Below, piece after piece: positions 4,411 to 24,057 of a stretch of 58,358 bases of DNA (position 1 is its first letter; every line of letters begins with the position of its first letter). Both the position numbers and the translations under genes were made by a program. The notes under the pieces are model-generated. The model saw only the letters and a program-made list of their open reading frames with translations, ran no database searches and was not told the origin of the DNA. This stretch comes from Actinomycetota bacterium (GTDB taxonomy: Bacteria; Actinomycetota; Geothermincolia; Geothermincolales; RBG-13-55-18): the NCBI GenBank assembly GCA_014360655.1, contig JACIXC010000018.1:1-58358 (forward strand), read 5' to 3'.

Positions 4411-5031
4411 ATGTCGGTCAAGTACGCCATCCTCGGGCTTCTGCATTACGAAGACATGCACGGTTACCGCATCAAGAAGCACATCGAGCACAACTTCGGC
4501 CACATGTGGACCATAAACTACGGGCAGATCTTCACCGCCCTGAGGAAGATGGAGGACGAGGGGCTGGTGGTCATGCGGGACCTGGTCCCCTCCGACAACG
4601 GGGGACCCCGCCGCAAGGTCTATTCCATCACCCCCGCGGGCAGGGAAGAGTTCTCCCGCTGGCTGGCTTCCGCTCCCGAGAAGGAGATGCTCATCCGGGA
4701 CCCCTTCCTCCTGCGCTTCGTCTTCTTCGGCTTCGGCGACCCGCGGCGGGCCCTGGAGATCCTGGAAGGGCAGATAGAGAGCTACGAGAAGCAGCTCCGG
4801 AGGCGGCGGGATAACCTGGAGCGGTGGCGGCACCACGGCGACTACGTGCGGCTCATGGCGGAGCTGGGGGTGCAGTTCAACGAGCTCTACCTGGAATGGC
4901 TGCGGCGCGCCCACCGCGAGCTCTCGGCCGGCCTGCGGGAGAGCGGCAAGGGGAACACGAGGAGGCGCGGAGAGGCCAGGGGAGAGGTCGCAAAGGAAGG
5001 CAGGAAAGAAGCCGGCAGCAAGGCCAGGTAG
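4411..5031 (+). CDS. PadR family transcriptional regulator
   Basis: The 206-residue product has a PadR winged helix at residues 1-90: MSVKYAILGLLHYEDMHGYR, INYGQIFTALRKMEDEGLV and RRKVYSITPAGREEF. A vinculin-like C-terminal helical domain (about 100-180) follows, with LEGQIESYEKQLRRRRDNLE. PadR proteins are dimeric repressors of detoxification, lipid or catabolic genes. The start is the ATG at 4411 after GGGAGGGAGACAGC. Residues ~186-206 (GEARGEVAKEGRKEAGSKAR) are encoded by the first unit of the tandem repeat that fills the downstream spacer, so the native C-terminus has been replaced or extended by repeat DNA. The next genes, two SDR enzymes, are candidate targets. Confidence 0.88.
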   Translation: MSVKYAILGLLHYEDMHGYRIKKHIEHNFGHMWTINYGQIFTALRKMEDEGLVVMRDLVPSDNGGPRRKVYSITPAGREEFSRWLASAPEKEMLIRDPFLLRFVFFGFGDPRRALEILEGQIESYEKQLRRRRDNLERWRHHGDYVRLMAELGVQFNELYLEWLRRAHRELSAGLRESGKGNTRRRGEARGEVAKEGRKEAGSKAR

Positions 5032-5480
5032 AGGTAACGGCAGGGAGGCTAGGGAAGAAATAGCGGCAGGTAGGCCATGGAGAGATAACGACAGGGAAGC
5101 GCGGAGAGGCCAGGGGAGAGGTCGCAAAGGAAGGCAGGAAAGAAGCCGGCAGCAAGGCCAGATAGAGGTAACGGCAGGGAGGCCAGGGAAGAAATAGCGG
5201 CAGGTAGGCCATGGAGAGATAACGACAGGGAAGCGCGGGGAGGTCAAGGAGCGGCGGGGAGGCCAGGGGGAAAGGTCAGCAGCAAGGCCAGGTAGAGGTA
5301 ACGGCAGGGAGGCCAGGGAGAAAGGGCGGCGGGGAGGCAAGGGAGAAAGAGCGGCGGGGAGGCCAGGTAGAGGTAACGGCAGGGAGACCAGGGAAGAAAT
5401 AGCGGCAGCAAGGCCATGGAGAGATAACGACAGGGAAGCGCGGGGAGGTCAAGGAGCGGCGGGGAGGCAAGGGAGAGTGC
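4965..5480. repeat. 134-bp tandem repeat invading the padR 3' end
   Basis: Unit A (4965-5098) and unit B (5099-5232) are both 134 bp and near-identical; each starts GCGCGGAGAGGCCAGGGGAG. Unit C (5233-5437) is expanded to 205 bp by internal copies of GGTAGAGGTAACGGCAGGGA and GGCGGGGAGGC. A partial unit D runs 5438 to about 5480. The strand is purine-rich (G/A). The spacer 5032-5579 holds no gene I can support; scattered open frames on the minus strand here are low-complexity. Confidence 0.85.
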
Positions 5481-5579
5481 CGGACAGAAAGCGTGAGTGA
5501 CGGGATACGCGACGGCATCGGCTGAACGGCGACTCGGAGAACATGGGATCGACCGGGAGATCGACAAGGGGGAGGAGAC

Positions 5580-6605
5580 ATGGAATATTCCGGCATAACA
5601 CTGGTGACCGGCGCCGCCGGCTTCATGGGCAGCCACATGGTGGAGTACCTCGCTTCGCGGGGGGTCAGGGTCAGGGCCACCGCCCGCCCGCGCAGGGATA
5701 CCACCTTCTTCGACCGCCTGGGGGTTGAATACGTGGGCGCGGACCTCACCCGAGAGGAGACCCTGCCGCCCCTCTTCGCGGGAGACGTGGACAGGGTCTT
5801 CCACTTCGGGGCGGTGTGCAATTTCTCCACCCCCTACGAGAAGCTCTATCCCATAAACGTCCAGGGGGTGGAGCGCATCACCCGGCTTGCCCTGGAGAAG
5901 GGGGTGAAGGCCTTCGTGCACATCGCCTCCACGGACGTCTACGGCGCCTACAAGGGAACCCCCTTCACCGAGGAGAGCCCCCGCGAGCCCATCGACGACT
6001 ACGGGCGCAGCAAGCGGGACGGGGAGGACGTGGTGTTCCGGCGCATGGAAGAGGGGCTCCCGGCCATCATCACCCGGCCCTGCACCGTCTACGGGCCGCG
6101 CTGCAACGACGGCGCGGGCAAGGCCTTTTCCCGCCCCTCCTCCATCAAGGCCATCCCCGGTAGCGGGAAACAGCTTCTCTCCAACGTTCGGGCGGAGGAT
6201 GTAGCCGCCGCGGCATACCACCTCTCCCTGCGCGAGGGATGTTTCGGGCAGGTATACAACATCGCCGACGACAGCCACCCCACGCTGGAAGAAGCCCTGC
6301 TGCTGGCCGCGGAGGCCTTCGGCACCAAACCGCCGAGGCTCCACCTTCCCCTGTGGCTGGTCAAGGCATCGGCGCGGTTGGAGGGGTGGAAGGCCGCTCG
6401 CAAGGGAGTCGTCCCCGACCTGGAGTACGACGCCGTGCGCTTCCTCTACGACGACTACATCGTGGACAACTCCAGGCTCAAGGCCACCGGCTACCGCTTC
6501 ATCTACCCTGATTTCCGGGAGTCGATGCTCCAGCTCAAGGAGTGGTACGCACGGGGGGGCGGGAGGGACGAGCCCTCGCCGGGCAGGTACGAGGGCGACG
6601 CTTGA
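5580..6605 (+). CDS. Extended SDR family NAD(P)-dependent epimerase/dehydratase or reductase
   Basis: The 341-residue product has an N-terminal Rossmann motif GAAGFMGSH (GxxGxxG). Other landmarks are DVDRVFHFGAVCNF in the substrate lid region, the serine region HIASTDVYG, and the catalytic pair in DDYGRSK (YxxxK). Together with VYGPRCNDG these mark an extended short-chain dehydrogenase, close to the 3-beta-hydroxysteroid dehydrogenase/dihydroflavonol reductase/UDP-sugar epimerase branch. The start is an ATG with GGGGGAGGAGAC ahead. It is followed after a 101-bp purine-rich gap by a classical SDR on the same strand, so the two are likely co-transcribed. The substrate is unknown. Confidence 0.85.
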   Translation: MEYSGITLVTGAAGFMGSHMVEYLASRGVRVRATARPRRDTTFFDRLGVEYVGADLTREETLPPLFAGDVDRVFHFGAVCNFSTPYEKLYPINVQGVERITRLALEKGVKAFVHIASTDVYGAYKGTPFTEESPREPIDDYGRSKRDGEDVVFRRMEEGLPAIITRPCTVYGPRCNDGAGKAFSRPSSIKAIPGSGKQLLSNVRAEDVAAAAYHLSLREGCFGQVYNIADDSHPTLEEALLLAAEAFGTKPPRLHLPLWLVKASARLEGWKAARKGVVPDLEYDAVRFLYDDYIVDNSRLKATGYRFIYPDFRESMLQLKEWYARGGGRDEPSPGRYEGDA

Positions 6606-6706
6606 GAGGTTCCGGGAAAGGGGGCCGCGGGGGAGTGCAGGGGGGCTGCGGAGGAGTGCAGGAGAGTGAAGGGGAAAGAGGGCGAGAGGACAAAGGGGGT
6701 AGGAGC

Positions 6707-7534
6707 ATGGAACGCGTGGTGGTGATCACGGGGCTGGCCCAGGGGATAGGCCGGGAGGTGGCCAGGCTGCTGGACGGGAGGGGTTGGGCGGTGGCCGGCT
6801 TCGACGTGGACGCGGAGGGGCTGGCCTCCCTCGCGGGCGAACTCGCCGGCGGGGACCGGCACCACCTGGTGACCCTGGACATCAGCGACCGCCCGGGGAT
6901 CCGGTCCTTCAGCCGCGATGTGCTGGATAAATATGGCAAGGTGGACACGGTCCTCTCCAACGTGGGCATCGGTTTCTTCGGGCCCTTCGAGGAGATCGAC
7001 CTGGAGGCCGCCCTGCGCTGCCTGGAGATCAACGTCATCGGTGCGGCGGCGGTCTTCCAGGCCTTCCTGCCCTCCATGCGCGAGAGGGGGGAGGGGAAGC
7101 TGGTGGCCATGTCGTCGCTGGTGGGGCAGATCCCGTTCCCCTTCGAGTCCATCTACACCGCCAGCAAGTTCGCCCTGGAGGGGCTGCTCCTGGCCTTCCG
7201 CTACGAGGTGGAGCCCTTCGGCATCCGGGTGGCCATCATCGAGCCCGCCCAGGTTTCCACGGGCTTCGCGGCCAAGATACACAAGCTCCCTCCCGAGGGT
7301 TCCCCCTACCGCGAGCGGGTGAAGAGGTTCATCGACCGCGACAACGAGCTCATCAAGACCGCCCCGGACCCGGTGCAGGCGGCGCGCGCCGTCGCCAAGG
7401 TGGTGGAGGCGGAAAAGCCTCCCCTTTTCACGCGCCTCGCCTTCCGGGACTCCTTCTTCATCACCATCAACAGGTGGCTGCCTGCGGGGATACGGGACGC
7501 CATCCTGGTCAACTTCATGAAGATAAAGGTGTGA
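6707..7534 (+). CDS. Classical short-chain dehydrogenase/reductase
   Basis: The 275-residue product has the cofactor motif TGLAQGIGRE (TGxxxGxG) at about residue 8, with FDVDAEGLA after beta-2. The NNAG equivalent is NVGIG, and the active site is MSSLVGQIPFPFESIYTASK (Ser, then YxxxK). The PG-equivalent segment reads EPAQVSTGFA. The aspartate after beta-2 suggests a preference for NAD. The frame is open upstream to 6542, but that stretch is low-complexity spacer; the ATG at 6707 follows AAAGGGGGTAGGAGC and starts directly before the Rossmann strand. A hydrophobic C-terminus (ITINRWLPAGIRDAILVNF) may associate with membrane. Confidence 0.88.
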   Translation: MERVVVITGLAQGIGREVARLLDGRGWAVAGFDVDAEGLASLAGELAGGDRHHLVTLDISDRPGIRSFSRDVLDKYGKVDTVLSNVGIGFFGPFEEIDLEAALRCLEINVIGAAAVFQAFLPSMRERGEGKLVAMSSLVGQIPFPFESIYTASKFALEGLLLAFRYEVEPFGIRVAIIEPAQVSTGFAAKIHKLPPEGSPYRERVKRFIDRDNELIKTAPDPVQAARAVAKVVEAEKPPLFTRLAFRDSFFITINRWLPAGIRDAILVNFMKIKV

Positions 7535-7693: not shown

Positions 7694-10075
7694 ATGAGGG
7701 AAACGGGCACACGGGTGGTTGCGGCACCCACGGATAGGGTGAAGAGGCTGCGGGAGAGGATCGTCGCCGCTCCCCAGGAGGTGTGCGTGGAGCGGGCGCG
7801 CTACCTCACGGAGGCCATGCGCGCGCACTGGGACGAGGACCCCCTGACGCGCATGAGCATGGCGCTCGAACATATCCTGGAAAACATAACCATAACGATC
7901 AGGGAGGGCGAGGTCGTGGTCGGGTGCCGCACCTCCAAGCTGAAGGGCGCCCCCCTCTTCCCGGAGAACAAGGCGCGCTGGCTGGAGGAGGACGTCGAGA
8001 ACTTCGACGCCAGGATCCTGCAGCGGGCGCTGATAACGCCCGAGGAGAAACGGGAGCTGCGCGAGGACATCCTTCCCTTCTGGCGAGGCAGGACGGTGGA
8101 GGAGCGCTTCGAGAGCCTGCTGCCGCCGGACGTGGCCGAGGACATGGACAAGTACATCTTCACCATCATGCTGGAGATGACCTACGGGATCGGGCACTTC
8201 ACCATGGATCACCCCACCCTGCTGCGCCTGGGCATGGGGGGGATCGCGGCGGAGGCGGAAAGGCGCCTGGGAGAGCTTCCCGCGCGGGAGCGCGAGGGTG
8301 AAAAAGGGAGATTCTACCAGTCCGTGGTCCGCTCCCTGCGGGCGGCGGTCCGCTTCGCCCGCCGCCACGCCGACCTGGCCCGGCGCATGGCGGAGGAGGA
8401 GAAGGACCCATCTCGCGCGGAGGAGCTGCGGGAGATGGCCCGCGTCTGCGGTCGCGTCCCCGAGCGCCCCGCGGAGACCTTCCACGAGGCAGTGCAGAGC
8501 GTCTACTTCGCCCACCTCATCGCGCAGATAGAGAGCGGCGGCAACTCCATCTCCCTGGGGCGCATCGACCAGTACCTCCTCCCCTATTACCGCCGGGACC
8601 TGGAGGCGGGCCGCATCACCCCCGAGAAGGCCCGAGAGCTCCTCTCCCTCCTCTATCTCAAGACCTGCGAGATATGGAACGTCCTGGAAGAGGCCTTCAT
8701 CCCCGGCGGGGAGGGGGCGGAGGGAAAGACCACCCAGAACCTGACCATCGGTGGCCTGGGTCCCGACGGCGAGGACGCCACAAACGAGCTCAGCTACCTG
8801 GCGCTGGACGCCTTCGCGGACGTGCGCACGGTGCAGCCAAACGTGAGCCTGCGCCTGGGCTCGCGGGCCCCCCGCGATTTCTTCCTGCGGGCGGTCGAGT
8901 ATGCCCGGGACGGCGTGCCCCTGCACTTCTTCAACGACGACGCCGTGGTACCCACCCTGGTGCGCGGGGGCCATTCCCTGGAGGACGCGCGGGACTACGC
9001 GCTGGTGGGTTGCGTGGAGCCGAACGCCCAGGGCAAGACCTTCGGGTCCACCTTCGCCGTGCAGTTCAACGGCATCAAGTGCGTGGAGTTCGCACTCTCC
9101 AACGGGGTGGACAACATCTTCGGTTACAGCTCGGGCATCGAGACAGGCGACCCCGCCTCCTTCACCTCCTTCCAGCAGGTCTGGGAGGCCTTCGCCGCCC
9201 AGATGTCCCACTTCGTCGGGCAGATGGTCAAGGGCATGGAGGCCCTGGACACGGCCATCGCGGGCATGCTCCCCTCACCCTTCGCCTCGGCCCTCATCGG
9301 GGGGCCCCTGGAAAAGGGCCTGGACGTCACGCGGGGAGGGGCGACGTACAACTCCACCGGCGTGCAGTTGATGGGGTTTTCCAACACCGCGGACAGCCTC
9401 TACGCCGTGAAGAAAGCCGTCTTCGAGGATGGAAGATATTCCCTTGAGGACCTGGCGGACTGGCTGGCCGGGGACTGGGCGGACGCCGAGGAGGCGCGCA
9501 AGTACCTGCTCCTGAAGGTGCCCAAGTACGGCAACGACCTGGAGGAGCCGGACGAGATGGCGGCGCGCGTGCTCGACCTATTCTGCGACCTCCTGGAAGG
9601 TCATACCAACTACCGGGGGGGCGCCTTCTGGCCGGGGGTCTTCTCCGTGGGCTTCCACCTGGCCATGGGTTCCTTCACCGGCGCCACGCCCGACGGCCGC
9701 AACGCGGGGGATGCCCTGGGCAACGGCCTCACCCCCTCCAACGGCTGCGCCGTTTCGGGTCCCACGGCGGTGATGAACTCCGTGTGCAAGCTGCCCCTCG
9801 GCCGCCTCTACAACGGCGCCAACCTCAACATGCGCTTCCCCGGGACAAGGACGGACCCCGAGAAGCTGCTGGCCCTCATCCAGGGATACTTCAGCGGGGG
9901 CGGACTGCAGGTCCAGTTCAACACGGTGGACACGGAGACCCTGCGGCGGGCCCAGGTCGAGCCAGAGAAATACCGTGACCTGGTGGTGCGCATAAGCGGT
10001 TATTCCGTCCTCTTCACCGGCCTGAGCGACACCGCCCAGGAGGAGATAATCAGCCGCTACGAATACCAGGTCTGA
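7694..10075 (+). CDS. Glycyl radical enzyme, PFL/glycerol-dehydratase-like family
   Basis: This is an oxygen-sensitive radical enzyme of 793 residues, the normal family length. The glycyl radical loop is RISGYSVLF, with Gly769 as the predicted radical site. The thiyl site is GCVEP, with Cys440 and Glu442. A GCVEP loop is shared by dehydratases and C-N or C-S lyases (glycerol and diol dehydratase, choline TMA-lyase, isethionate lyase) and differs from the CC pair of pyruvate formate-lyase. The pyruvate formate-lyase reaction is therefore unlikely, but the substrate is open. No radical-SAM activase is encoded nearby, although these genes are normally adjacent. CoA transferase genes follow on the same strand. 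The start is ATG 7694 with GGGAGG 10 nt upstream. Confidence 0.93.
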   Translation: MRETGTRVVAAPTDRVKRLRERIVAAPQEVCVERARYLTEAMRAHWDEDPLTRMSMALEHILENITITIREGEVVVGCRTSKLKGAPLFPENKARWLEEDVENFDARILQRALITPEEKRELREDILPFWRGRTVEERFESLLPPDVAEDMDKYIFTIMLEMTYGIGHFTMDHPTLLRLGMGGIAAEAERRLGELPAREREGEKGRFYQSVVRSLRAAVRFARRHADLARRMAEEEKDPSRAEELREMARVCGRVPERPAETFHEAVQSVYFAHLIAQIESGGNSISLGRIDQYLLPYYRRDLEAGRITPEKARELLSLLYLKTCEIWNVLEEAFIPGGEGAEGKTTQNLTIGGLGPDGEDATNELSYLALDAFADVRTVQPNVSLRLGSRAPRDFFLRAVEYARDGVPLHFFNDDAVVPTLVRGGHSLEDARDYALVGCVEPNAQGKTFGSTFAVQFNGIKCVEFALSNGVDNIFGYSSGIETGDPASFTSFQQVWEAFAAQMSHFVGQMVKGMEALDTAIAGMLPSPFASALIGGPLEKGLDVTRGGATYNSTGVQLMGFSNTADSLYAVKKAVFEDGRYSLEDLADWLAGDWADAEEARKYLLLKVPKYGNDLEEPDEMAARVLDLFCDLLEGHTNYRGGAFWPGVFSVGFHLAMGSFTGATPDGRNAGDALGNGLTPSNGCAVSGPTAVMNSVCKLPLGRLYNGANLNMRFPGTRTDPEKLLALIQGYFSGGGLQVQFNTVDTETLRRAQVEPEKYRDLVVRISGYSVLFTGLSDTAQEEIISRYEYQV

Positions 10076-10222
10076 AGCGTGACCGGGTATGAAGGGTGAC
10101 CGGGTTTAAGGACGAACTGGCTTCAAGGGCGGCCTGGCTTGACGGGAGGCCGGCTCTAACGGCCTTGATGGATGACCGGCTTTGACGGGAGAACGGCTTT
10201 GACGGGAGAGCCCGCTTGCAGG
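10074..10222. repeat. Degenerate 17-bp tandem repeat, about nine units
   Basis: Starting at the stop codon of the glycyl radical enzyme gene, successive ~17-mers run GAAGCGTGACCGGGTAT, GAAGGGTGACCGGGTTT, AAGGACGAACTGGCTTC, AAGGGCGGCCTGGCTTG and so on, ending in GAGAACGGCTTTGACGG and GAGAGCCCGCTTGCAGG. One unit is only 13 bp. The array fills most of the 190-bp spacer to the CoA transferase A gene and has no coding signal. Confidence 0.65.
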
Positions 10223-10265
10223 AGCCGGCCGGCGACAGGAAGGAGTTTCCAGGAGGAGGTGGGGG

Positions 10266-11201
10266 ATGAGCAAAGTCATGACCATGCGCGAGGCCATCGC
10301 CGAGCACGTCCACGACGGGGATTTTCTCTTCATCGGCGGCTACATCTGCCGGACCCCCTTCGCCGCCATACACGAGATCATCCGGCAGGGTAAGAAAGAC
10401 CTCACCGTCACCCGCAGCAACGCCGCGGACGATTTCGACATGCTCATCGGGGCGGGGGCGGTGAAGCGGTTCATCGCCACCTTCCTCTCCCTGGGCGTTT
10501 ACGGGTTGGGAAGGTGCTTCCGGCGTTCCCTGGAGAAGGGGATACCGCACAGGATCGAGTTGGAGGAATACACCAACCTGTCCCTGCCCATGATGCTCAT
10601 GGCCGGCGCCCTGGGTATGCCCTTCATCCCGGTGAAGGACATGGTGGGGTCGGACCTGCTGAAGGTGAGATCCTTCCTGGGAGAGGGAAAGTACAAGGTC
10701 ATCGATAATCCCTTCGACGGCACACCCACCCTGCTGGTGCCGGCGCTCAACCCGGACGTGGCCATCATCCACGTGCAGCAGGCGGACGAGGACGGCAACG
10801 CCCAGGTATGGGGCATCGAGGGCGACTGCAAGTGGGGGGCCAACGCCGCCCGCAAGGTCATCGTGAGCTGCGAGAGGATAGTCTCCCGCGAGGTGATCGG
10901 GAAGGACCCCTCGCGCACCATCGTCCCCGACTTCCAGGTGGCGGCGGTGGTGGAGGAGCCCTTCGGGGCGCATCCCGGCTACACCCCGGGCTTCTACGAC
11001 GTGGACTTCATGTTTGGCAGCCTTTACCAGCAGGCCTCGGGCAGCGAGGAGGGTTTCCGGGCCTTTCTCGACGAGTGGGTCTTCGGGGTCGAGGACCGCA
11101 ACGCCTACGTACAGCATTACATCGAGAAGTTCGGGTACTCCCAGTTCCGGGGGCTCATGGCCGAGTTCGATTACGGTTACCCGGTCAGCTACGCGTACTG
11201 A
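10266..11201 (+). CDS. CoA-transferase family I, subunit A (glutaconate CoA-transferase A / IpdA-like)
   Basis: The 311-residue product has the N-terminal MREAIAEHVHDGDFLFIGGY of family I alpha subunits, VTRSNAADDFDMLIGAGAVK in the fold core, and HVQQADEDGNAQVWG and EEPFGAHPGYTPGFYD typical of the glutaconate-CoA-transferase/IpdA branch. The alpha subunit binds substrate; the active-site glutamate is in the partner encoded next (20 bp away). IpdAB from actinobacterial steroid catabolism are homologous but act as ring-opening hydrolases, so transferase versus hydrolase activity is not settled. The start is an ATG after an excellent GGAGGAGGTGGGGG. Confidence 0.9.
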   Translation: MSKVMTMREAIAEHVHDGDFLFIGGYICRTPFAAIHEIIRQGKKDLTVTRSNAADDFDMLIGAGAVKRFIATFLSLGVYGLGRCFRRSLEKGIPHRIELEEYTNLSLPMMLMAGALGMPFIPVKDMVGSDLLKVRSFLGEGKYKVIDNPFDGTPTLLVPALNPDVAIIHVQQADEDGNAQVWGIEGDCKWGANAARKVIVSCERIVSREVIGKDPSRTIVPDFQVAAVVEEPFGAHPGYTPGFYDVDFMFGSLYQQASGSEEGFRAFLDEWVFGVEDRNAYVQHYIEKFGYSQFRGLMAEFDYGYPVSYAY

Positions 11202-11221
11202 GGACGCGGGGGGTGAGGTGG

Positions 11222-12022
11222 ATGAGCGCGACGGAGACGGATTACATCAAGCCCGAGCTCATGGCATGCTGCGGGGCCCGGGAGATACGCGACGGGGACC
11301 TGGTCATCGTGGGCACCGGGTTCCCCAGCGTGGCCGCCAACATCGCCCGCTACACCCACGCGCCCAACGCGCGCATGATGCAGGAGTCGGGGGTTTACGA
11401 CGCCCAGCCCAAGCGCCCGGCCCTCTCGGTGGGAGACCCCTGCCTCAACCCCGGGGCCGCCTTCATCGGCTCCCTCATAGACGTGATGGGCATGTTCCTG
11501 CAGGGTGGAAAGGTGGACGTGGGTTTCCTGGCCGGGAGCCAGGTGGATAAATATGGCAACATCAACACCACCGTCATCGGGGACTACGAGCGGCCCAGGA
11601 GCCGCCTGCCGGGGAGCGGGGGAGCCAATCCCATCGGGCTCCTTGCGAAGAGGGTGCTCATCATCGCCCTGCACGACAAGCGGCGCCTGGCGGAGCGGGT
11701 GGACTTCATCACCACCCCCGGCTACATCGACGGCCCGGGAAGCCGCGCCGCGTGGGGTCTCCCGGAGGACCAGGGGCCGGAGGTCATCATCACCAACAAG
11801 GGCGTGCTGCGCTTCGACAAGGAGAGCAAGGAAGCCTACCTGGAGTCCTACCACCCGGGAAGCACCATCGAGGAGATCCTGGAGAACACCCCCTGGGAGC
11901 TCAAGGTGGCGGAGGACGTGCACGAGACGCCGCCGCCCACCGCGGAGGAGCTGCGGGCCATCCGGGAGATCATCGACCCCATGCGCATGATCACCATCTA
12001 CCTCAAGCGCGGCTACGTCTGA
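11222..12022 (+). CDS. CoA-transferase family I, subunit B (glutaconate CoA-transferase B / IpdB-like)
   Basis: The 266-residue product carries ARMMQESGVYD; Glu55 of this ESG motif aligns with the nucleophilic glutamate of glutaconate CoA-transferase B. Other landmarks are SVGDPCLNPGA, LQGGKVDVGFLAGSQVDKYG and NINTTVIGDYERP. It forms the catalytic half of a heteromer with the preceding subunit. The ATG at 11222 follows GGGGGGTGAGGTGG. The C-terminus (PPPTAEELRAIREIIDPMR) is also typical of the family. Clustering with a glycyl radical enzyme and acyl-CoA dehydrogenases suggests activation, or ring cleavage, of a CoA ester intermediate. Confidence 0.9.
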   Translation: MSATETDYIKPELMACCGAREIRDGDLVIVGTGFPSVAANIARYTHAPNARMMQESGVYDAQPKRPALSVGDPCLNPGAAFIGSLIDVMGMFLQGGKVDVGFLAGSQVDKYGNINTTVIGDYERPRSRLPGSGGANPIGLLAKRVLIIALHDKRRLAERVDFITTPGYIDGPGSRAAWGLPEDQGPEVIITNKGVLRFDKESKEAYLESYHPGSTIEEILENTPWELKVAEDVHETPPPTAEELRAIREIIDPMRMITIYLKRGYV

Positions 12023-12072
12023 GAGGGCATCCCGCGGAGGGGGATGCAGGGGATGAGCGGGAGGTGAAAGGA

Positions 12073-13440
12073 GTGGACGAAACGCGCAAGCTGGCCGGCT
12101 TCTGCGCGCGCGCGCGCTGGGATGACCTGCCCCCCGAGGTGCGGCGGCGCGCCAGGATCTGCGTGCTGGACTTCGTGGCCAACGTCTACGGTTCGCTGCA
12201 GTTGCGCGAGGTGAGGGGGATCGCGGACTACGTCCGTTCCCTGGGGGGAGCCCCCACGTCCGCCGTCCTGGGCTGCGGGTACGGGACGGCCCCGCAGCTG
12301 GCGGCCTTCGTCAACGGCACGCTGGCGGAATCCATCGAGGCGCAGGACGGGCTGCGCTACGGCGGCAACCACCCGGTTTCGGCGGTGATGCCCGCGGCGC
12401 TGGCGACGGCGGAGAGCGAGGGCTGCGGCGGAAGGAAATTCCTGGAAGCACTGGTGGCGGGCTACGAGGTGGCCAACCGCACGGCGGCCGCCGTGCACCC
12501 CTCCCACACCCTTTCCGGCTTTCTGCCCACGGGCACCTGCGGGACCTTCGGGGCCGCGGCGGCGGCGGCCCTGCTCATGGGCCTGGACGAGGAGGGCATA
12601 CTCAACGCCCTGGGGATCGCGGGCTACCTGGCTCCCCTTTCCATGGCGGAGATCCTCATGGGCGGCTTCACCGCCAAGGTGGTGCAGGGCGGGCAGGCGG
12701 CCGCGGCGGGTATCACCGCCGCCGCCCTGGCGAAGTCCGGGATCACGGGGGCGCCCTACGTACTGGAAGGCTCCCAGCTGCAGGGGGGCTTCACCCAGAT
12801 CACGCTGCGTGGGGAAGCCAACCTGGAAAGGATCACCGAGGGGCTGGGAGAGCACTACAGCATCCTGGACATGTACCTCAAGCCCTATTCCGCGTGCCGA
12901 CACACCCACGGGGCGGTGCAGGCCCTGCTGGAAATACTCGCCGAGAGGGACCCGAAGCCCGACGAGGTGGAGAAGGTGGAGGTCTACACCTACGGCATCG
13001 CGGTGGTGGCGGTGGGCAAGGGGCTGGGCGAGAACGAGAGCTTCGTGTCCGCCCAGTTCTCCATCCCCTACGTGGTGGCGGCGGCCATGCTGGACCGTGA
13101 GCTGGGGCCGCGCCAGCTCACCGCGGAGAGGCGCGCCGACCCCGCGCTGAGGGAGCTCATGTCGCGGGTGGAGGTGAAGCTGGACGAGGACCTGCAGAAG
13201 GTCTACCCGGAGAAGACGACCAGCCGCGTGGAGCTGCTGCTCGCGGGAGGGGAGAGGCTGGCGCGGCAGGTGGACGTCCCCAAGGGAGACCCCCGCGACC
13301 CCATGGAGGAGGACGACGTGCGCGAAAAACTGCGGCGCTTCGCCGGAGACCGCGACGCGGGGAAGCTGGAGGAGCTGGCCGGCATGGTCATGCGCCTGGA
13401 GGAGATCGGAGACATGGGAAGGTTCACGGAGATGGTATAG
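12073..13440 (+). CDS. MmgE/PrpD family protein (2-methylcitrate dehydratase-like)
   Basis: The 455-residue product shows the MmgE/PrpD fold: N-terminal LPPEVRRRARICVLDFVANV, central EAQDGLRYGGNHPVSAVMPA, HPSHTLSGFLPTGTCGTFGA, KVVQGGQAAAAGI and KPYSACRHTHGAVQA. Family members include 2-methylcitrate dehydratase, cis-aconitate decarboxylase and many catabolic hydratases or dehydratases of unknown substrate. The usual PrpD cluster partners (PrpB, PrpC) are absent here, so a role in the local acyl-CoA pathway is more likely than propionate metabolism. The start is GTG 12073, placed 8 nt after GGGAGG; GTG 12064 is the alternative. Confidence 0.9.
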   Translation: MDETRKLAGFCARARWDDLPPEVRRRARICVLDFVANVYGSLQLREVRGIADYVRSLGGAPTSAVLGCGYGTAPQLAAFVNGTLAESIEAQDGLRYGGNHPVSAVMPAALATAESEGCGGRKFLEALVAGYEVANRTAAAVHPSHTLSGFLPTGTCGTFGAAAAAALLMGLDEEGILNALGIAGYLAPLSMAEILMGGFTAKVVQGGQAAAAGITAAALAKSGITGAPYVLEGSQLQGGFTQITLRGEANLERITEGLGEHYSILDMYLKPYSACRHTHGAVQALLEILAERDPKPDEVEKVEVYTYGIAVVAVGKGLGENESFVSAQFSIPYVVAAAMLDRELGPRQLTAERRADPALRELMSRVEVKLDEDLQKVYPEKTTSRVELLLAGGERLARQVDVPKGDPRDPMEEDDVREKLRRFAGDRDAGKLEELAGMVMRLEEIGDMGRFTEMV

Positions 13441-13497
13441 GCGGTTCCGGGAAGCGAGGAACGCGGCGGAGCCGGAACGCGAGGGGAGCGCAAGAAA

Positions 13498-13637
13498 GAC
13501 GCGAGGGGAACCCGTGGGAACACGGGGGAGGAGACGCGAGGGGAACCCGTGGAAACACGGGGGAGGAGACGCGAGGGGAACACGGGGGAACGCGGGGAAG
13601 GAGACGCGAGGGGAACACGGGGGAACGCGAGGAAGGA
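13498..13637. repeat. 35-bp tandem repeat, four units
   Basis: Units begin with GACGCGAGGGGAAC at 13498, 13533, 13568 and 13603, an exact 35-bp period. Two units carry GGGAACCCGTGG and two GGGAACACGGGG, so the array has paired sub-variants. There are no unique spacers, so it is not a CRISPR array. It fills most of the 280-bp gap between the MmgE/PrpD and acyl-CoA dehydrogenase genes; the strand is purine-rich. Confidence 0.85.
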
Positions 13638-13720
13638 AAGGAAAATAAAGGAAAACGCCTGGGACTCGAAGCGGGTGCTCGAGGCGACCGGGATGGCAAC
13701 GGGACGGGAAAGGAGCGGAG

Positions 13721-14887
13721 ATGGACTTTTCCTTCAACGACGAACAGAAGCTGCTGATCGAGACCATCCGCGCCATGGGGGAGAGGGAGGACTTCAAACA
13801 GCTCGCCGCGGACATAGACGCCAGGGCCGAGTTCCCCCACCACCTCCTGAAGAAATACGCGGACATGGACCTCCTGGGGATGACCCTCTCCCCGGAGTAC
13901 GGGGGAGGGGGCGCTCCGGCCATCAACGCCATTTTGGCCATCGAGGAGCTGGCGAAGTTCAGTCCCATGATCGCCGCGCCGGTCTTCGAGTCCAACGTAG
14001 GGGCGGTGCGGGTGATAGACCTCTTCGGCACGGAGGAGCAGAAACGGGCCATCATCCCCGGGGTGTGCCGGGGGGAGCTGAGCGTGTCCGTGTGCATGAC
14101 CGAGCCGGAGGCCGGTTCCGACCTCACCTCCCTCAAGACCCACGTGGTGGAGGACGGCGACGACCTCATCCTCAACGGGCAGAAGATATTCATCTCCGGG
14201 GGCGGGGAAGCCAGCCATTACCTGGTCTACACCCGCTTCGGGGACATCATGGGCTACAAGGGGATCGGGGGCATCATCGTGGAGAGGGACATGCCGGGGT
14301 TCTCCTTCGGCAAACAGGAGGAATTCATGGGCCTGCGCGGCATGCCCTCCTGCGAGCTCATCTTCGAGGACGTGCGGGTTCCCAGGAAGAACGTGGTCCT
14401 GGAGGCGGGGGAGTTCAGCAAGCTCATGCTCACCTTCGACATCGAGCGCTGCGGGAACGCGGCCATGTGCCTGGGGGTGGCGGGGGGCGCCCTGGAGGAG
14501 GCCAAGGCCTACGCCATGCAGCGCCGCGCCTTCGGGAGGCCCATCTGCGAGTTCCAGGCCATCCAGTTCATGATCGTGGACATGGCCATGAAGCTGGAGG
14601 CGGCGCGCCTGCTTGTCTACCGGGCGGCCAGCGGCGCGGGTCAGGGCTTGCCCTCCGTCTACGAGGCCTCGCTGGCCAAGTGCTTCGCCAACGAGATGGT
14701 GGTGGAGGTGACCAACGCGGCCATGCAGGTCTTCGGCGGCTACGGGTACAGCAGGGACTTCCCGGTGGAGAGGATGATGCGCGACGCCAAGGCCTGGGGA
14801 GTGGCGGGTGGCACCGTGCAGATGCTGCGCATCACCCTGGCCAGTTTCCTTTTCGGCAGGCGCTTCGACCAGCGGCCGGGAAAGTGA
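13721..14887 (+). CDS. Acyl-CoA dehydrogenase with relocated catalytic glutamate
   Basis: The 388-residue flavoprotein has the usual order. These are N-terminal FNDEQKLLIETIRAMGE, the FAD-site CMTEPEAGSDLTSLKT, FISGGGEASHYLVYTRFG, and C-terminal QVFGGYGYSRDFPVERMMRD. At the site where medium- and short-chain enzymes have YEGT with the catalytic Glu, this protein has GVAGGTVQ. It does have TFDIERCGNAA, where IVD and LCAD place their base (DLER). Use of that alternative glutamate is therefore predicted, consistent with a branched, cyclic or bulky acyl substrate. It oxidises an acyl-CoA to the enoyl-CoA, passing electrons to ETF. The start is an ATG after GGAGCGGAG. Confidence 0.92.
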   Translation: MDFSFNDEQKLLIETIRAMGEREDFKQLAADIDARAEFPHHLLKKYADMDLLGMTLSPEYGGGGAPAINAILAIEELAKFSPMIAAPVFESNVGAVRVIDLFGTEEQKRAIIPGVCRGELSVSVCMTEPEAGSDLTSLKTHVVEDGDDLILNGQKIFISGGGEASHYLVYTRFGDIMGYKGIGGIIVERDMPGFSFGKQEEFMGLRGMPSCELIFEDVRVPRKNVVLEAGEFSKLMLTFDIERCGNAAMCLGVAGGALEEAKAYAMQRRAFGRPICEFQAIQFMIVDMAMKLEAARLLVYRAASGAGQGLPSVYEASLAKCFANEMVVEVTNAAMQVFGGYGYSRDFPVERMMRDAKAWGVAGGTVQMLRITLASFLFGRRFDQRPGK

Positions 14888-14988
14888 CGGGTTGGCCGCA
14901 CCGCCGGCGGTGAGGGCGGGCCGCGCGGCCCGCCGCAACGAAGGGGCGCCGGGGAGGCCCGGCGGCGACCTCGAGGAGGGGGTGCGAG

Positions 14989-15429
14989 ATGGGAGAATAT
15001 TACAGGGACGCGGAGCAGCTCTACGAGATCTACGGGTACTTCATGGACAGGATCCTGCGGGACCCGAAGGCGGGCCCCAAGATGGCGAGGGCGGGGATCA
15101 TCATCAAGTTCATCTACACGGATCCCGACGCGGAGATCACCATCGACCTCAAGAACCCGCCCGAGAAGGAAGGCTATTACGGCACCTACTACCTTGGACC
15201 GTGCGACCTCAAGGAGGACGTGTGGTCCAAGCAGGCGGCGGACTTCTCGCACAGCTTCTGGCACGGGCTGGAAAACCCCGTGGCCGCGGTGACCAAGGGC
15301 AAGATAAAGCAGGGCGGGAAGATCACCGCCATGCTCAAGCTGCTTCCCGTGGTGCGCCCCGCCTTCGACCTCTTCCCCAAGGTCCTGGAGGAGATGGGCT
15401 ACGGGGACAAGGTGATCCGCAAGGAATAG
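14989..15429 (+). CDS. SCP2 sterol-binding domain protein
   Basis: The 146-residue single-domain protein has the SCP2 pattern. A helical start (YYRDAEQLYEIYGYFMDRIL) leads to beta strands (IIIKFIYTDPDAEITIDLKN), then DVWSKQAADFSHSFWHGLEN and the typical KGKIKQGGKITAMLKLLPVV, matching the conserved G(K/R)IK..GD segment. SCP2 domains bind lipids or fatty acyl-CoA and are used as carriers in several catabolic clusters. It lies 101 bp after the acyl-CoA dehydrogenase gene and before the dehydrogenase pair. The start is an ATG after GAGGAGGGGGTGCGAG. Confidence 0.82.
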   Translation: MGEYYRDAEQLYEIYGYFMDRILRDPKAGPKMARAGIIIKFIYTDPDAEITIDLKNPPEKEGYYGTYYLGPCDLKEDVWSKQAADFSHSFWHGLENPVAAVTKGKIKQGGKITAMLKLLPVVRPAFDLFPKVLEEMGYGDKVIRKE

Positions 15430-15500: not shown

Positions 15501-15944
15501 CTCCGCCTATGCCTGGGGGATATCCCGACGGGGGAAAGGGGGTTATCCCCCATTGTCCCCTGTGACGGGGTGGGCATATCATATCTATACGGTTTCGGTG
15601 CACTTTGTACGTGAAAGGGGGAGGTGCGGCTGTTCCCGGTCTTTTGACCCTTCCTGGCGGCGTCGTGTCCCGTCCTCCCGTCCTCTTTCCTCGCGTGAAG
15701 GTGGAAGCGTGTTCCCGCAAGGAGCAGGCGGAAAAGACGGCTCGCGCCGCACGGGTTGCGCACGCCGCGTTGAAGGCCGCGCGAAGCGCCGGAAAAATGG
15801 GAGCATTGCCGAGATCTCGAACCCCGTGATCACCGTTATTCACCGGAATCACTGAAATCGCCAAGGCGTGGCCGCCCCGCCGGCGGAGCCGGCATGTTTT
15901 GCCCGGGGCGGCACCAGAGGGAGTTGCGATGGAAGGAGGTTCAC

Positions 15945-17153
15945 ATGAGCGACCACGACCGGTTTCCCTGTCTCTATGAATGGGCGAGCGACATGGACGT
16001 CTCCCTGGCCGGGAACCTCAGGCGCTGGGCGGAGAACGAGGTGATGGCCAAGCGCCTGGAGCTCAAGGAGGACTACGAGCAGTTGCTTGAGCCGGCCCTG
16101 CGCCGCCTTTTCCTGGAGATCGGCCTGCAGCGCCTGCTGTGGCCGGAGGAGCACGGCGGTGATGGGCACAACACCCCCGCGGCCGCCGTGACCGTCACGG
16201 CGGCCCTGGAGCAGGTGGCGCGCGGAGACGTGGGCATAGCCCTGCTCCTCTCCTCCCTCCTGGCCCTGCAGAGCGCGGTGGCCATGGAGGGGGCGGTGAA
16301 CGAGGAGGTGTGCGCCGCGCTGGCGGGGAAGATGGGCGCCGACGGAGAGCCCGTCCTGGTATCTCCGGTCCTCCCCCTCTTTCGCGACGAGCCCCAGGCC
16401 GCGGCGAAGCACGGCAGGGGAGGGTGGACGGTGGAAGCCTCCTCGGCCCGCCCCCAGGCCTGCGGCGGGAATGCCTCGTGGTACGCGGTCCTCTGCGCCC
16501 TGGAGGGATCCGACGATGAGTGGGGGGTGCTGGTGATCCCGGGGGACGCCAAGGGGGTCAAGCGCGGTGAGCCGCTCAAGCGCACCGGGCTCGCCGCCGA
16601 CGTCAACGCGCCGGTGAGCTTCGACAAGGTCAAGGTGCCGGAGGGGATGTGCGCGGCGCGGGGAAAGGATGCGTGCCGGGCCATGCTCTCCTGGTTCTAC
16701 CTGGGAGTATCTGCCAGCACGGTGGGGGCCCTCTTCGCTTCCTACGAGATACTCAAGGAATGGGGGGACAACCGGGTGATCAAGGGCAGGGGCAACATCT
16801 TCAAGGAAAATCCTCTTACCGCCGCGGTGATGGCCGAGGTGGCCAGGGAGACCTCGCTGGCGCGCATGCTCACCTGGGACCTCGCCCGCATCCTCTCCGA
16901 CCCCGCGGTCTACGGGCCACCGGGGCAGGAGGGGAACTATGTGACCGCGGCCATGGTCGTCCACCAGGTCTCGCAAGCGGGGGAGAGCGCCATCAACCGG
17001 GCCATGGAGATGATGGCCTCCGCCGGCTACGCCAGGGAGTGGAACCTGGAGCGCTACTGGCGGGACGTGAAGGCCATGCAGCTCTGCCTGGGCCCCTACG
17101 AGCTGGCAAAGATGGACATTTCCCGCTACTTCTACCAGGCGAGTACCCTTTGA
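15945..17153 (+). CDS. Acyl-CoA dehydrogenase-like protein, probable non-catalytic partner subunit
   Basis: The 402-residue protein is a clear relative of the next gene: C-terminal LERYWRDVKAMQLCLGPYEL aligns with VEKHWRDLKIVQLWMGGKQL, and MASAGYAREW with MSMYGGDRDW. It lacks the TEPxxGSD flavin motif; the corresponding stretch reads LVSPVLPLFRDEPQAAAKHG. It also lacks the YEGT catalytic glutamate. Heteromeric alpha2beta2 acyl-CoA dehydrogenases of actinobacterial steroid degradation (FadE28-FadE29 type) likewise pair an active subunit with a degenerate one; that parallel is inferred. The start is an ATG after GGAAGGAGGTTCAC. It lies 22 bp from the next gene. Confidence 0.85.
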   Translation: MSDHDRFPCLYEWASDMDVSLAGNLRRWAENEVMAKRLELKEDYEQLLEPALRRLFLEIGLQRLLWPEEHGGDGHNTPAAAVTVTAALEQVARGDVGIALLLSSLLALQSAVAMEGAVNEEVCAALAGKMGADGEPVLVSPVLPLFRDEPQAAAKHGRGGWTVEASSARPQACGGNASWYAVLCALEGSDDEWGVLVIPGDAKGVKRGEPLKRTGLAADVNAPVSFDKVKVPEGMCAARGKDACRAMLSWFYLGVSASTVGALFASYEILKEWGDNRVIKGRGNIFKENPLTAAVMAEVARETSLARMLTWDLARILSDPAVYGPPGQEGNYVTAAMVVHQVSQAGESAINRAMEMMASAGYAREWNLERYWRDVKAMQLCLGPYELAKMDISRYFYQASTL

Positions 17154-17175
17154 CGTGGAGTGGGAGGAGATGGAA

Positions 17176-18444
<1,269 letters not shown>

Positions 18445-18948: not shown

Positions 18949-20577
18949 ATGAGCGACGTGATGAGTGGGCAGCGAACCTCGACGGAGGGCGGGTCTCCGG
19001 CGGTCGGGCCGGCCGCGGAGGCCGGCGACGCCTCCCGGGCCGCACAGGGAGCCCTGCCGGGCCTGGTGCGTGAGCTCATCAGGTCACCCGGCTTCAAGGA
19101 GCTGGTGAACATTCACCTGAGGGGAGCGGACCCCGCGAGCGCGAGGGAGCTGGTGAGGGCTTTCCTCTGGGAGGATGTGGGCTTCTCCATGGGGGTGCTG
19201 GGAGCGAGCCCGAAGATCCTGAACTGGCTGGTGGAGGCGCTCATCGAGCTGGGTGTGCAGCTGAACAACTTCACCAAGGACATACTGCGGGATTTCATGG
19301 TGCGCATGGGCAGGGACCTGGACGTGGAGAGGATGAAAGCCCTGCCGGCCGCGTACGCTCCCATGCTCAATGACCTGCTCCTCGAGGACCGCGAGGCGCT
19401 GGACGCCCTTATAGCGGGCCTGGGTTCGCTCGCGGAATCCATGATGAAGGCCACGGGAGCGACGCTGAAAAAGATAGGCAACACCGCCGATTTCGGGAAA
19501 GTGAGGGTGGGGCTCACGCGGCACTTCGAGTCCAGGCGGGAGGAGCTCTCGGGAGAGCCGCCGACCCTCAACCCCGTGGTGCTCTCCAACCTCCTGGGCG
19601 TGGTGCCGCCGCTGACCAACTACCTGCTGCGGGTGTTCACGCGCGCCCTGCAGGGCATGAACCTCCCCTCGGAGATACTGGCCAGCGCCACCTTCCAGCT
19701 CCTGGAAGACATCGACCAGGCCGAGCTGGGCGGCCTGGTGAACGCCCTCTGCGACGTGGTCATCTCGCTGCACCGGGGCAACCTGCTCCTGGGCAGGGAC
19801 GAGCCGCGCTTCAAGCAGGTGCTGGAGAGGGTCAGCGGGAAGCTCCTGGACAACGTGGACGCGGAGAGGTTCAAGGAGGCGGCCGTAGCCCTGGGAGAGG
19901 ACGGCAAGGTCATAGGACAGGTGGTGTCAGGCTACCTCTTCGCCACCCCGGAGAGCACGGCGAGGGTGGCCAGGGCCATGTCCGTGGCGGTGAACGCCGC
20001 CCTGCGCGCCACGGCCGATCTCCTGCGTCGTTTCGCCGAGCTGTCCCCGGAGGCCATGGAGGAGGTGGTGTCCCACTACCGGGAGACCTTCGACCCGCGG
20101 GAAGCTGCGCGCCTGCTCAATACCAACGCCGTCATCCTCAACAAGGCCTGCGCCGTGGCGCCGGAGCTGGTCGGGGAAACGGTCGGCGGTTTCATGACCG
20201 CCCTCGACCGGGAGGAGCTGGCGAGGGCGGGGAAGTCGCTGGCGTTGCAGGCGGCGCGTGCCGTGCTGGCGGACCCCGCCGTGGACGCCGCCCTGCAGCC
20301 GGAGGCGCTGGGAGAGAGGATAAACGCCGGGCTCGCCGCCTTCAACCGCGTGGTGCGGGAGAACCCGGACCTGGTGAGCAGGGTGGCGCGCACCATCGGC
20401 GCCGTCGACGGGAAGGAGCTGCGCAGGGCCACCCTCGGGTTCGCCTTCCCGCTGATCCGTGCCCTGGCCAGGGAGACGAAGGCGGGGAAGACGGCGGTAA
20501 GGGCGGGGGCAGGTGTCCTCGCGCTGTTGGGCGCGGGAGGAGCGCTGCTCGCCCTCAGGGCCTGGAGGAGACGTTAG
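18949..20577 (+). CDS. Uncharacterised helical protein with C-terminal membrane anchor
   Basis: I do not recognise the family of this 542-residue protein. An N-terminal ~90-residue domain (35-125) is paralogous to the preceding protein. The middle and C-terminal parts are further amphipathic helices, including EILASATFQLLEDIDQAELG, LVNALCDVVISLHRGNLLLG and IDALNR-like repeats rich in Ala and Leu. A single hydrophobic segment near the end (GVLALLGAGGALLALRAW) followed by RRR* predicts a tail-anchored inner-membrane protein with the bulk in the cytoplasm. The start is an ATG after AAGGAGGGTTCGCGAC. Its position at the end of the dehydrogenase operon suggests a membrane platform for that pathway (inference). 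Confidence 0.7.
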   Translation: MSDVMSGQRTSTEGGSPAVGPAAEAGDASRAAQGALPGLVRELIRSPGFKELVNIHLRGADPASARELVRAFLWEDVGFSMGVLGASPKILNWLVEALIELGVQLNNFTKDILRDFMVRMGRDLDVERMKALPAAYAPMLNDLLLEDREALDALIAGLGSLAESMMKATGATLKKIGNTADFGKVRVGLTRHFESRREELSGEPPTLNPVVLSNLLGVVPPLTNYLLRVFTRALQGMNLPSEILASATFQLLEDIDQAELGGLVNALCDVVISLHRGNLLLGRDEPRFKQVLERVSGKLLDNVDAERFKEAAVALGEDGKVIGQVVSGYLFATPESTARVARAMSVAVNAALRATADLLRRFAELSPEAMEEVVSHYRETFDPREAARLLNTNAVILNKACAVAPELVGETVGGFMTALDREELARAGKSLALQAARAVLADPAVDAALQPEALGERINAGLAAFNRVVRENPDLVSRVARTIGAVDGKELRRATLGFAFPLIRALARETKAGKTAVRAGAGVLALLGAGGALLALRAWRRR

Positions 20578-20639
20578 GCACGGGGGTCATGGACACGGGG
20601 GTCAGGACTCGTTTCGTGCGCGGGGCATCAAAGCGACCA

Positions 20640-20661
20640 GACCCCATGATGTGTTTGGGGG
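20640..20661. repeat. GACCCCATGATGTGTTTGGG element before the dehydratase cluster
   Basis: A relative of the palindrome at 7571-7591 (shared GACCCC, then GTTTGGG). Just upstream, CACGGGGGTCATGGA and CACGGGGGTCAGGA (20579-20607) form a 14-bp direct repeat with the same GGGTCA core. It ends 10 nt before the ATG at 20672, so it also supplies part of the leader of that gene. Confidence 0.5.
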
Positions 20662-20671
20662 TGAAGAGAGG

Positions 20672-21784
20672 ATGAGCGTGTTGCAGAGCCGGTCGACGGA
20701 CATCTACACGGATTACGTGCGCGACTGGAAGGAAAAGGGAGGACGGGTGCTCGGCTACTCCTGCGTGGCCACCCCGGTGGAGATCGTGGAAGCGGCGGGC
20801 ATCCTCCCCTACCGCATCAAGGCCTTCGGCCATCCCGATACCGAGCTGGGAGATTCCTATTTGGCGCGCTTCAACTGCCGTTTCTGCCGCTCCTGCCTGC
20901 AGCTGGGGCTGGACGGCACCTACGATTTCCTGGACGGGCTGGTGGAGACCAACGGCTGCGACCACCTGCGCGGGATGTTCGAGAACTGGCAGTACGCCAA
21001 GAAATACGATTTCTTTCACTACCTCAAGGTGCCGCACTTCGTGCGCGAGGATTCCCTGGAATATTTTACCGAGGAACTCGGTCTCTTCCGCCTGGCCATA
21101 GAGGAGCATTTCGAGGTGGAGATAACGGACAACGCGCTGCGCGAGGCGATGGGCACCATGGAACAGGTCTACGCCAGGCTCAGGGACCTCTACGCCCTGC
21201 GGGAGCGTGAGAGGCCGGTGGTGAGCGGGGCGGAGGTCATGCGGGTGGTCTGCACGGGGTCCTCCATGCGGGCGGCGGATTTCCTCGGCCTCCTGGACCG
21301 CCTGGTGGAGGAGAAGTCAAGGGGACCGGCGCTCGATTACCGCGCCCGTTTCATCCTCATGGGGAGCGCCACCGACGAGGTGGACCTGGTGGCGGACATC
21401 GAGGAGCAGGGAGGGCTGGTGGTCACAGATGCCCTCTGCTACGGGTCCCGGTCCTTCTGGGGGCGGGAAGGGGAGTCGGAGGAGCCCCTGCGCCGCCTGG
21501 CCGAGAAGTACCTGGGCAACCTCTTCTGCCCGCGCATGTTCACAGAGTACGAGCGGCGGCGGGATTTCATCCTGGAGCGGGCGAGGCAGGCGCGCGTGGA
21601 CGGGGCCATCATCACCTACAACAAGTTCTGCGACCTGCACGGGGTGGAGGCGGTCTCCCTGCGCACCGACCTGGAAAAGAATGGTATACCGGTCCTGGTG
21701 CTGGAGAAGGACTACGGCTCGCCGGCGGATACCGGCCGCATCAAGACCCGCGTGCAGGCCTTCCTGGAGCGGATCGGGAGGTAA
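20672..21784 (+). CDS. 2-hydroxyacyl-CoA dehydratase family protein, B/D-type subunit (HgdB/BcrC-like)
   Basis: The 370-residue protein has the family pattern GYSCVATPVEIVEAAG near the N-terminus, FNCRFCRSCLQLGLD, GCDHLRGMFENW and ADIEEQGGLVVTDALCYGSR, with a C-terminal end LEKDYGSPADTGRIKTRVQA. The cysteines are candidates for [4Fe-4S] ligation. Such proteins pair with an HgdA-type subunit to dehydrate (R)-2-hydroxyacyl-CoA or reduce benzoyl-CoA by a ketyl-radical mechanism, after activation by an ATP-dependent HgdC-type protein not encoded in this window. The ATG at 20672 follows GAAGAGAGG. The A-type partners are encoded 2.3 and 3.9 kb downstream on the same strand. Confidence 0.9.
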   Translation: MSVLQSRSTDIYTDYVRDWKEKGGRVLGYSCVATPVEIVEAAGILPYRIKAFGHPDTELGDSYLARFNCRFCRSCLQLGLDGTYDFLDGLVETNGCDHLRGMFENWQYAKKYDFFHYLKVPHFVREDSLEYFTEELGLFRLAIEEHFEVEITDNALREAMGTMEQVYARLRDLYALRERERPVVSGAEVMRVVCTGSSMRAADFLGLLDRLVEEKSRGPALDYRARFILMGSATDEVDLVADIEEQGGLVVTDALCYGSRSFWGREGESEEPLRRLAEKYLGNLFCPRMFTEYERRRDFILERARQARVDGAIITYNKFCDLHGVEAVSLRTDLEKNGIPVLVLEKDYGSPADTGRIKTRVQAFLERIGR

Positions 21785-21819
21785 AGGGGTAAGGATAAGG
21801 GCAAAGAGGAAGGGACGGC

Positions 21820-23007: not shown

Positions 23008-23019
23008 CTGGGAGGTTCC

Positions 23020-23754: not shown

Positions 23755-24057
23755 GCGCGGCATCGCGCGCCTTGGTGATCGGCCGAGAGCTGAGAGAAGA
23801 AAGGCGAAGAGGGTGTTGGAGGTGCATAAGGTTTGCGCAAAGGAGCCGGAAAGGGAAAGATGGGTACGGTACGGGTGGTTTTTCGTACGGACAGGTTGGA
23901 TGCAGTTGCGACGGCAGGACTTATAAAGGGAGGAGACAGGCGGCATGGCTCGTGATGGTTTGCAGGCAGGGGTGTAGCGATGGCTCCCGGATGTAAAATG
24001 GAAAATTTATGCATTCTTGCACGGCGGTTCGGAAAGATGCTGAAGGGGGTATAAGAG
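23755..24057 (+). other. 303-bp spacer before the first A-type dehydratase gene
   Basis: No coding signal is visible. A moderately AT-rich patch (GGGTGGTTTTTCGTACGGAC, about 23873-23892) lies in the middle, and AATGGAAAATTTATGCATTC (23996-24015) lies near the end. No hexamer pair at proper spacing is convincing. The last 20 bp (AAGGGGGTATAAGAG) are the ribosome site for the next gene and are also repeated before its paralogue at 25685-25697. Confidence 0.5.

Follow-up and report, generated by a model that had tools for sequence, protein, structure and literature searches.

The oxygen-sensitive glycyl radical enzyme (GRE) encoded at positions 7694-10075 of the forward strand of a 58,358-nucleotide contig from an actinomycetotal bacterium of the Geothermincolia (JACIXC010000018.1; hereafter the window), which we term GRE-X, belongs to a separate clade of its superfamily and is found in a conserved gene cassette from which a linked activating enzyme is missing. 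We propose, with a probability of about 0.5, that GRE-X is an eliminase allied to the diol dehydratases (CxE branch), that it serves as key enzyme in a previously undescribed cassette for the anaerobic catabolism of a hydrophobic alcohol, and that it is activated in trans. The window forms contig C18 in a genome of 2.97 Mb with an estimated completeness of 99.96%.

The complete open reading frame (ORF) encodes 793 amino acids and contains a PFL-like domain (Pfam, 8e-199) and a Gly_radical domain (2.5e-22), which together with the conserved Gly and Cys place GRE-X in the glycyl radical enzyme superfamily. It scores 711.8 bits with the NCBIfam model TIGR01774, above the cut-off of 678.2. The catalytic residues, which an initial annotation of the window had described as intact, are indeed all present: Cys440 and Glu442 lie in the motif GCVEP (Cys440-Val-Glu442) and Gly769 in RISGYS, and the three are invariant in an alignment of 17 GRE-X homologues.

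A scan of genome contigs recovered 24 further GRE-X loci at 60-94% identity, and every titled record among them is a metagenome-assembled genome (MAG). By record title the carriers are Candidatus Solincola, Geothermincola, Geohydrothermomicrobium, two Dehalococcoidia, Deltaproteobacteria, Spirochaetes, SAR324 and Zymogenus, while a sample of Desulfobacterota contained GRE-X in 13 of 345 genomes. After two split bins had been merged and three overlaps taken out, the total amounts to approximately 33 genomes including the one of the window, and the groups represented are Actinobacteria, Dehalococcoidia, Desulfobacterota, Spirochaetes and SAR324. In a maximum-likelihood tree GRE-X forms a single clade with 100% bootstrap support on a long stem, the deeper branching not being settled by this tree. 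Identity within the clade is at least 60%, versus 25-39% to HypD, CutC, PflD, YbiW, PflB, glycerol dehydratase (GD), propanediol dehydratase and the paralogues encoded in the same genomes. None of the NCBIfam equivalog models is reached, each score being at most 55% of the respective cut-off. The expectation that GRE-X would fall outside the characterised isofunctional clusters is thus borne out by both the model scores and the tree.

The nearest relatives in sequence and fold are B12-independent glycerol dehydratase (PDB 1r8w) and the GRE 1,2-propanediol dehydratase (5i2a/5i2g and 9rco); a structure search with the GRE-X model placed these dehydratases closest, with a TM score of approximately 0.9. 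They share with GRE-X the CxE motif, the beta1 histidine and the glycine loop. However, they are only 38-39% identical to it, and GRE-X differs in having no adjacent activase and a gene context of CoA and carrier-protein functions. The model loops near Cys440 and Thr347 are of low confidence, and the pocket residues were therefore taken from the alignment alone, with the residue numbering of GD as reference. The beta1 histidine of GD (H164) is retained as His168, but the beta2 position is Asn284 in GRE-X (His281 in GD), the usually aromatic beta3 position is Thr347 (Tyr339 in GD, Phe395 in CutC), and the position of GD Asp447 is occupied by Phe454. Asn284, Thr347 and Phe454 are all invariant inside GRE-X. 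In view of these altered pocket residues, an assignment of GRE-X to the glycerol or propanediol dehydratases, its best matches, was rejected.

Comparison with the other named GREs leads to a similar picture. Trans-4-hydroxy-L-proline dehydratase (HypD) has the CxE motif and the beta1 histidine in common with GRE-X, but its essential Asp278 and Phe340 (active-site residues from PMC7077986) correspond to Asn284 and Thr347, it is 34% identical, and its model gives 488.7 bits against a cut-off of 1100. Choline trimethylamine-lyase (CutC) was rejected at 456.7 bits against 1050, the position of its Asp216 being a histidine, and sulfopropanediol dehydratase at 554.5 bits (HpfG) and 473.4 bits (HpsG) against 1000. 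Isethionate sulfite-lyase was dismissed on the beta1 residues Arg189 and Gln193 (IslA; PMC8473560), which are replaced by Tyr164 and His168, and the arylacetate decarboxylases HPAD and IAD at 266 and 360.7 bits against cut-offs of 1100-1150. YbiW and PflD, which hold cyclic-ether ligands (1,5-anhydrohexitol 6-phosphates; PDB 8id7, 8id0) and are 34-37% identical to GRE-X, have different active-site residues, and YbiW has an adjoining activase on the Escherichia coli records compared. Judged from these alignments, the radical machinery of GRE-X is of the eliminase type, but its pocket corresponds to no characterised GRE among those compared. Grouping with CutC, a GRE on a plasmid of Peptoclostridium acidaminophilum (L113, 3010-5379) carries valine in place of the CxE glutamate and has an amino acid racemase gene nearby.

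The fumarate-adding enzymes resemble GRE-X in a different respect. The operons of benzylsuccinate, alkylsuccinate and limonenylsuccinate synthase likewise combine a GRE with a CoA-transferase and an acyl-CoA dehydrogenase (ACAD) for hydrophobic substrates; in the limonenylsuccinate synthase operon, the GRE is followed by both of these genes (PMC12583861). In logic this operon is the closest analogue of the GRE-X cassette. GRE-X itself was nevertheless rejected as an X-succinate synthase, a type in which the alpha chain is accompanied by linked small subunits and an activase: the alpha chain of benzylsuccinate synthase is a distant match, and the genes beside GRE-X all belong to other families, none of them an activase. 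In the open-access literature (subscription journals lay outside the search) we found no paper on a GRE accompanied by such a set of carrier, dehydrogenase/reductase and CoA-transferase genes.

Activases are normally encoded next to their GRE, and the initial annotation had reported that the 58 kb contain no such radical-SAM gene. This holds, as the TIGR02494 profile has no match on the contig and a tblastn search of the window with 80 activases returned nothing beyond a short ferredoxin-like segment at about 21841-22140. The genome-wide search that had been suggested located three activases elsewhere, at C1:4050-4904 and as a tandem pair at C29:4877-6707. Neither was a conserved version of the locus with an adjacent activase found: no GRE-X locus compared contains one, and a 34% match to ACT_B, an activase clade described below, upstream of the gene in L118 covers a stretch of only 48-76 residues and was not counted. 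The missing linked activase is a stable trait of the cassette and not a loss in this genome. Unlinked TIGR02494 activases occur in 28 of 30 distinct carrier genomes including that of the window (G040 and G041 were set aside as duplicates of G009 and G002); none was found in G158 and G273, two MAGs that may be incomplete. As a separate observation, the tandem pair on C29 (L042, G000:C29, 4847-6725) lies near a GRE that is cut by the contig end, and G017, G024 and G014 contain such a pair as well.

Of the 28 carriers with activases, 25 have a member of ACT_B, a clade of the activase tree with a support of 0.999. Where its flank was read, the gene usually lies beside another GRE, here called GRE-B, and a PNPOx-like gene. 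In the Dehalococcoidia genomes G031 and G032, ACT_B is the sole activase while both GRE-X and GRE-B are present. On the single-contig chromosome CP070630.1 the only activase is ACT_B; it adjoins neither GRE, lying in its own neighbourhood approximately 15 kb away from GRE-X, and GRE-B is distant. E. coli PflA serves both PflB and GrcA (PMC12338860), and a single activase can thus act on more than one glycyl radical protein. The most parsimonious interpretation of these data would be that ACT_B activates GRE-X in trans.

The genes around GRE-X usually recur in the same order, namely PadR, epimerase-like short-chain dehydrogenase/reductase (SDR), second SDR, GRE-X, GctA, GctB, MmgE/PrpD, ACAD and sterol carrier protein 2 (SCP2). 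In the window all are on the forward strand; counts refer only to loci whose contig extends far enough. The unit starts with a PadR-family regulator (4411-5031; Pfam PadR 4.1e-19; 17 of 21 loci), followed by an extended, epimerase/dehydratase-like SDR of 341 amino acids (5580-6605; Pfam Epimerase 4.8e-33; GxxGxxG and YxxxK motifs; 24/25) and a classical SDR whose start was placed at the ATG of MERVVVITG (6707-7534; Pfam adh_short 1.6e-43; YTASK; 26/27). Downstream of GRE-X lie the two subunits of a glutaconate-CoA-transferase-like enzyme, GctA (10266-11201; Pfam CoA_trans; PDB 1poi_A, E 2e-61; 25/28) and GctB (11222-12022; 1poi_B, E 7e-61; 25/27). Both match the Acidaminococcus enzyme (1poi) over most of their length, and the catalytic glutamate of subunit B is aligned and retained (ESG), QESG being present in every homologue examined; the differences from that system lie in the genomic context and in the replacement of GctAB in one locus. 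These are followed by an MmgE/PrpD-family protein (approximately 12055-13440, the start being approximate; Pfam MmgE_PrpD N and C domains; 22/24), whose closest PDB entries are IDS-epimerase and cis-aconitate decarboxylase, and by an ACAD (13721-14887; Pfam and alignment to 3pfd; 21/23). The ACAD contains a glutamate in FDIER, the base position of the isovaleryl/long-chain type, and carries GGT at the site of EGT in its closest relative. The last gene (14989-15429; 20/22) encodes a protein of 146 amino acids with no Pfam match even at E values up to 1, but its AlphaFold2 model (pLDDT 88) has the SCP2 fold (Foldseek E 7e-7, probability 1.00, TM 0.65/0.77).

The earlier description of this run thus stands for the CoA-transferase, MmgE/PrpD and ACAD genes, each recognised by Pfam, and for the SCP2 gene by predicted structure. 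It had delimited the unit at 7694-15429; the genes within these limits belong to it, but the upstream limit was drawn too narrowly, as PadR and the two SDR genes (4411-7534) are part of the conserved unit. Its view that the neighbourhood is unlike the known GRE clusters also agrees with our comparison, in which GRE-X forms its own clade and the cassette order recurs without an activase. The occurrence of one gene order across phyla suggests horizontal transfer of the cassette. In L022 an AMP-ligase takes the place of both GctAB and PrpD, a swap that supports a function of GctAB in converting an acid to its CoA ester. L119 is reduced to SDR-SDR-GRE-SCP2, which associates the SCP2 fold with the radical reaction. 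L026 and L027 carry an additional aldehyde dehydrogenase (ALDH) and a DUF362 protein.

From these components a pathway can be proposed. The radical on Gly769 would be installed in trans by a radical-SAM activase from another locus, most probably ACT_B of the GRE-B operon. By analogy with family chemistry, this radical would be passed to Cys440, whose thiyl radical would abstract a hydrogen from the hydroxyl-bearing carbon; Glu442 would aid deprotonation of the hydroxyl group, and a leaving group at the beta position, such as OH or OR, would depart to give an aldehyde or ketone. The two SDRs may interconvert alcohol and carbonyl, and oxidation to the acid would fall to an aldehyde oxidoreductase or an aldehyde dehydrogenase, genes for which are linked at some loci. 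GctAB, or the AMP-ligase in L022, would then form the CoA ester, and the ACAD and the MmgE/PrpD protein would carry its breakdown onward by beta-oxidation. SCP2 would carry the hydrophobic substrate or its acyl-CoA, and it is this fold that suggests a hydrophobic ligand. A more specific variant, which we regard as decidedly unlikely, has GRE-X break a hydrophobic hydroxy-ether at its C-O bond by radical chemistry, for instance a glycerol alkyl ether (such as the core of archaeal or bacterial ether lipids) or a lignin beta-ether, and would amount to anaerobic ether breakdown in uncultured sediment and hot-spring bacteria. The released alcohol and aldehyde would be degraded by the SDRs, the aldehyde oxidoreductase, the CoA-transferase, SCP2 and the branched-chain-type ACAD; YbiW and PflD may serve as a precedent for GREs with cyclic-ether ligands and for C-O-C cleavage. 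A hydrophobic alcohol or hydroxy-ether as the substrate is our working proposal.

Several points weigh against the proposed eliminase and its activation by ACT_B. The CxE motif alone does not prove elimination, as arylacetate decarboxylases carry it too, and the change of GD Asp447 and Tyr339 to Phe454 and Thr347 means that GRE-X has another substrate than GD and perhaps catalyses another reaction. The solved relatives of the MmgE/PrpD protein use free di- or tricarboxylic acids, which fits a polar acid better than a lipid, and the role of this protein is the least explained part of the cassette. An aldehyde:ferredoxin oxidoreductase (AOR) is linked to GRE-X in only 7 of 19 loci and belongs to more than one orthologous group, and was hence rejected as a core gene; linkage of an AOR or ALDH in a minority of loci still fits an aldehyde product. 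As for the activase, G034, G083 and G129 hold only activases other than ACT_B, and GRE-B is near universal in the class (27/31), so that the co-occurrence of ACT_B is not specific. Among the Desulfobacterota, GRE-B is found in 11 of 13 GRE-X genomes versus 25 of 332 others, but a further enzyme, GRE-C (at least 60% identity), is enriched as well (6/13 versus 3/332), and given that the genomes do not represent independent samples and that no control for lifestyle is included, these counts indicate a guild of GRE users and not a specific partnership. The phylogenetic profile is therefore suggestive but not specific, and ACT_B was not accepted as the cognate activase on this basis. In some Desulfobacterota genomes (G093:C39, G111:C2, G334:C56 and G173:C46) GRE-B and GRE-C lie close together, a further hint that several GREs may share an activase.

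Other explanations of the locus have to be weighed against this proposal. GRE-X could be an ordinary small-diol dehydratase of the glycerol or propanediol type, with the CoA genes using propanal or a similar short product, as would be expected from its top sequence and fold matches. The invariant Phe454 in place of Asp447 and Thr347 in place of an aromatic residue, the low identity to these enzymes and the SCP2-fold carrier in nearly all loci make this quite unlikely. A decarboxylase or C-C lyase resembling the arylacetate decarboxylases, feeding an aromatic or alicyclic acid pathway in which GctAB and ACAD act on the CoA ester, would account for the three 2-hydroxyacyl-CoA dehydratase-like (HGD-D) genes downstream in the window, and PadR regulators often respond to phenolics. 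These HGD-D genes are, however, outside the conserved unit, the arylacetate-decarboxylase models reach 266-361 bits only, far under their cut-offs, and the structure of such an enzyme ranks well under the diol dehydratases, so that we consider this reading unlikely.

Alternatively, GRE-X might catalyse an intermediate and not the entry step, in a route from a hydrophobic alcohol, derived from a polyol, a terpenoid or lignin, to an acid of the dicarboxylate type on which GctAB and MmgE/PrpD would act. GctAB is closest to a dicarboxylate CoA-transferase, MmgE/PrpD is closest to di- and tricarboxylate enzymes, and both are lost together in L022 and L119; sequence does not cleanly separate this unlikely possibility from the eliminase proposal. 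Finally, an enzyme that is never activated, as a relic or in a structural role, would explain why an activase is never adjacent and why two carrier MAGs have no TIGR02494 activase. Those two may be incomplete, though, the other 28 carriers searched encode an unlinked activase, and the invariance of Gly769, Cys440 and Glu442 over a large divergence indicates selection for radical chemistry, which renders a relic highly improbable.

If the eliminase proposal is correct, uncultured anaerobes from several phyla possess in GRE-X an uncharacterised GRE subfamily that is probably isofunctional and comes with its operon already assembled, and a testable pathway emerges for a hydrophobic compound where oxygen is absent. 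GRE-X would also show that a GRE can persist through long periods of evolution with no activase gene linked to it. The existence of such enzymes implies that genome mining by activase adjacency misses some GREs.

Additional observations concern neighbouring and related genes. In a GRE-X-carrying spirochaete MAG, a frame of at least 1182 amino acids (L177, G036:C28:44000-48700) encodes a naturally fused protein distinct from GRE-X, in which an activase (CALRCAWC) makes up the N-terminal part and a GRE (GCVEP, RVAGY) the C-terminal part. In the window itself, two divergent ACAD-like genes (15894-18444) follow right after the cassette and are also present in the same-genus bin L033 but not in other loci; an ORF of 542 amino acids without a significant Pfam match (18949-20577) apparently occurs in L033 too. 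The region 20513-27098 contains the three HGD-D genes (2-hydroxyacyl-CoA dehydratase / benzoyl-CoA-reductase-like), an Fe-S CCG protein and an MTHFR C-terminal-domain protein, and is followed by a PocR sensor kinase and a LuxR-type response regulator.

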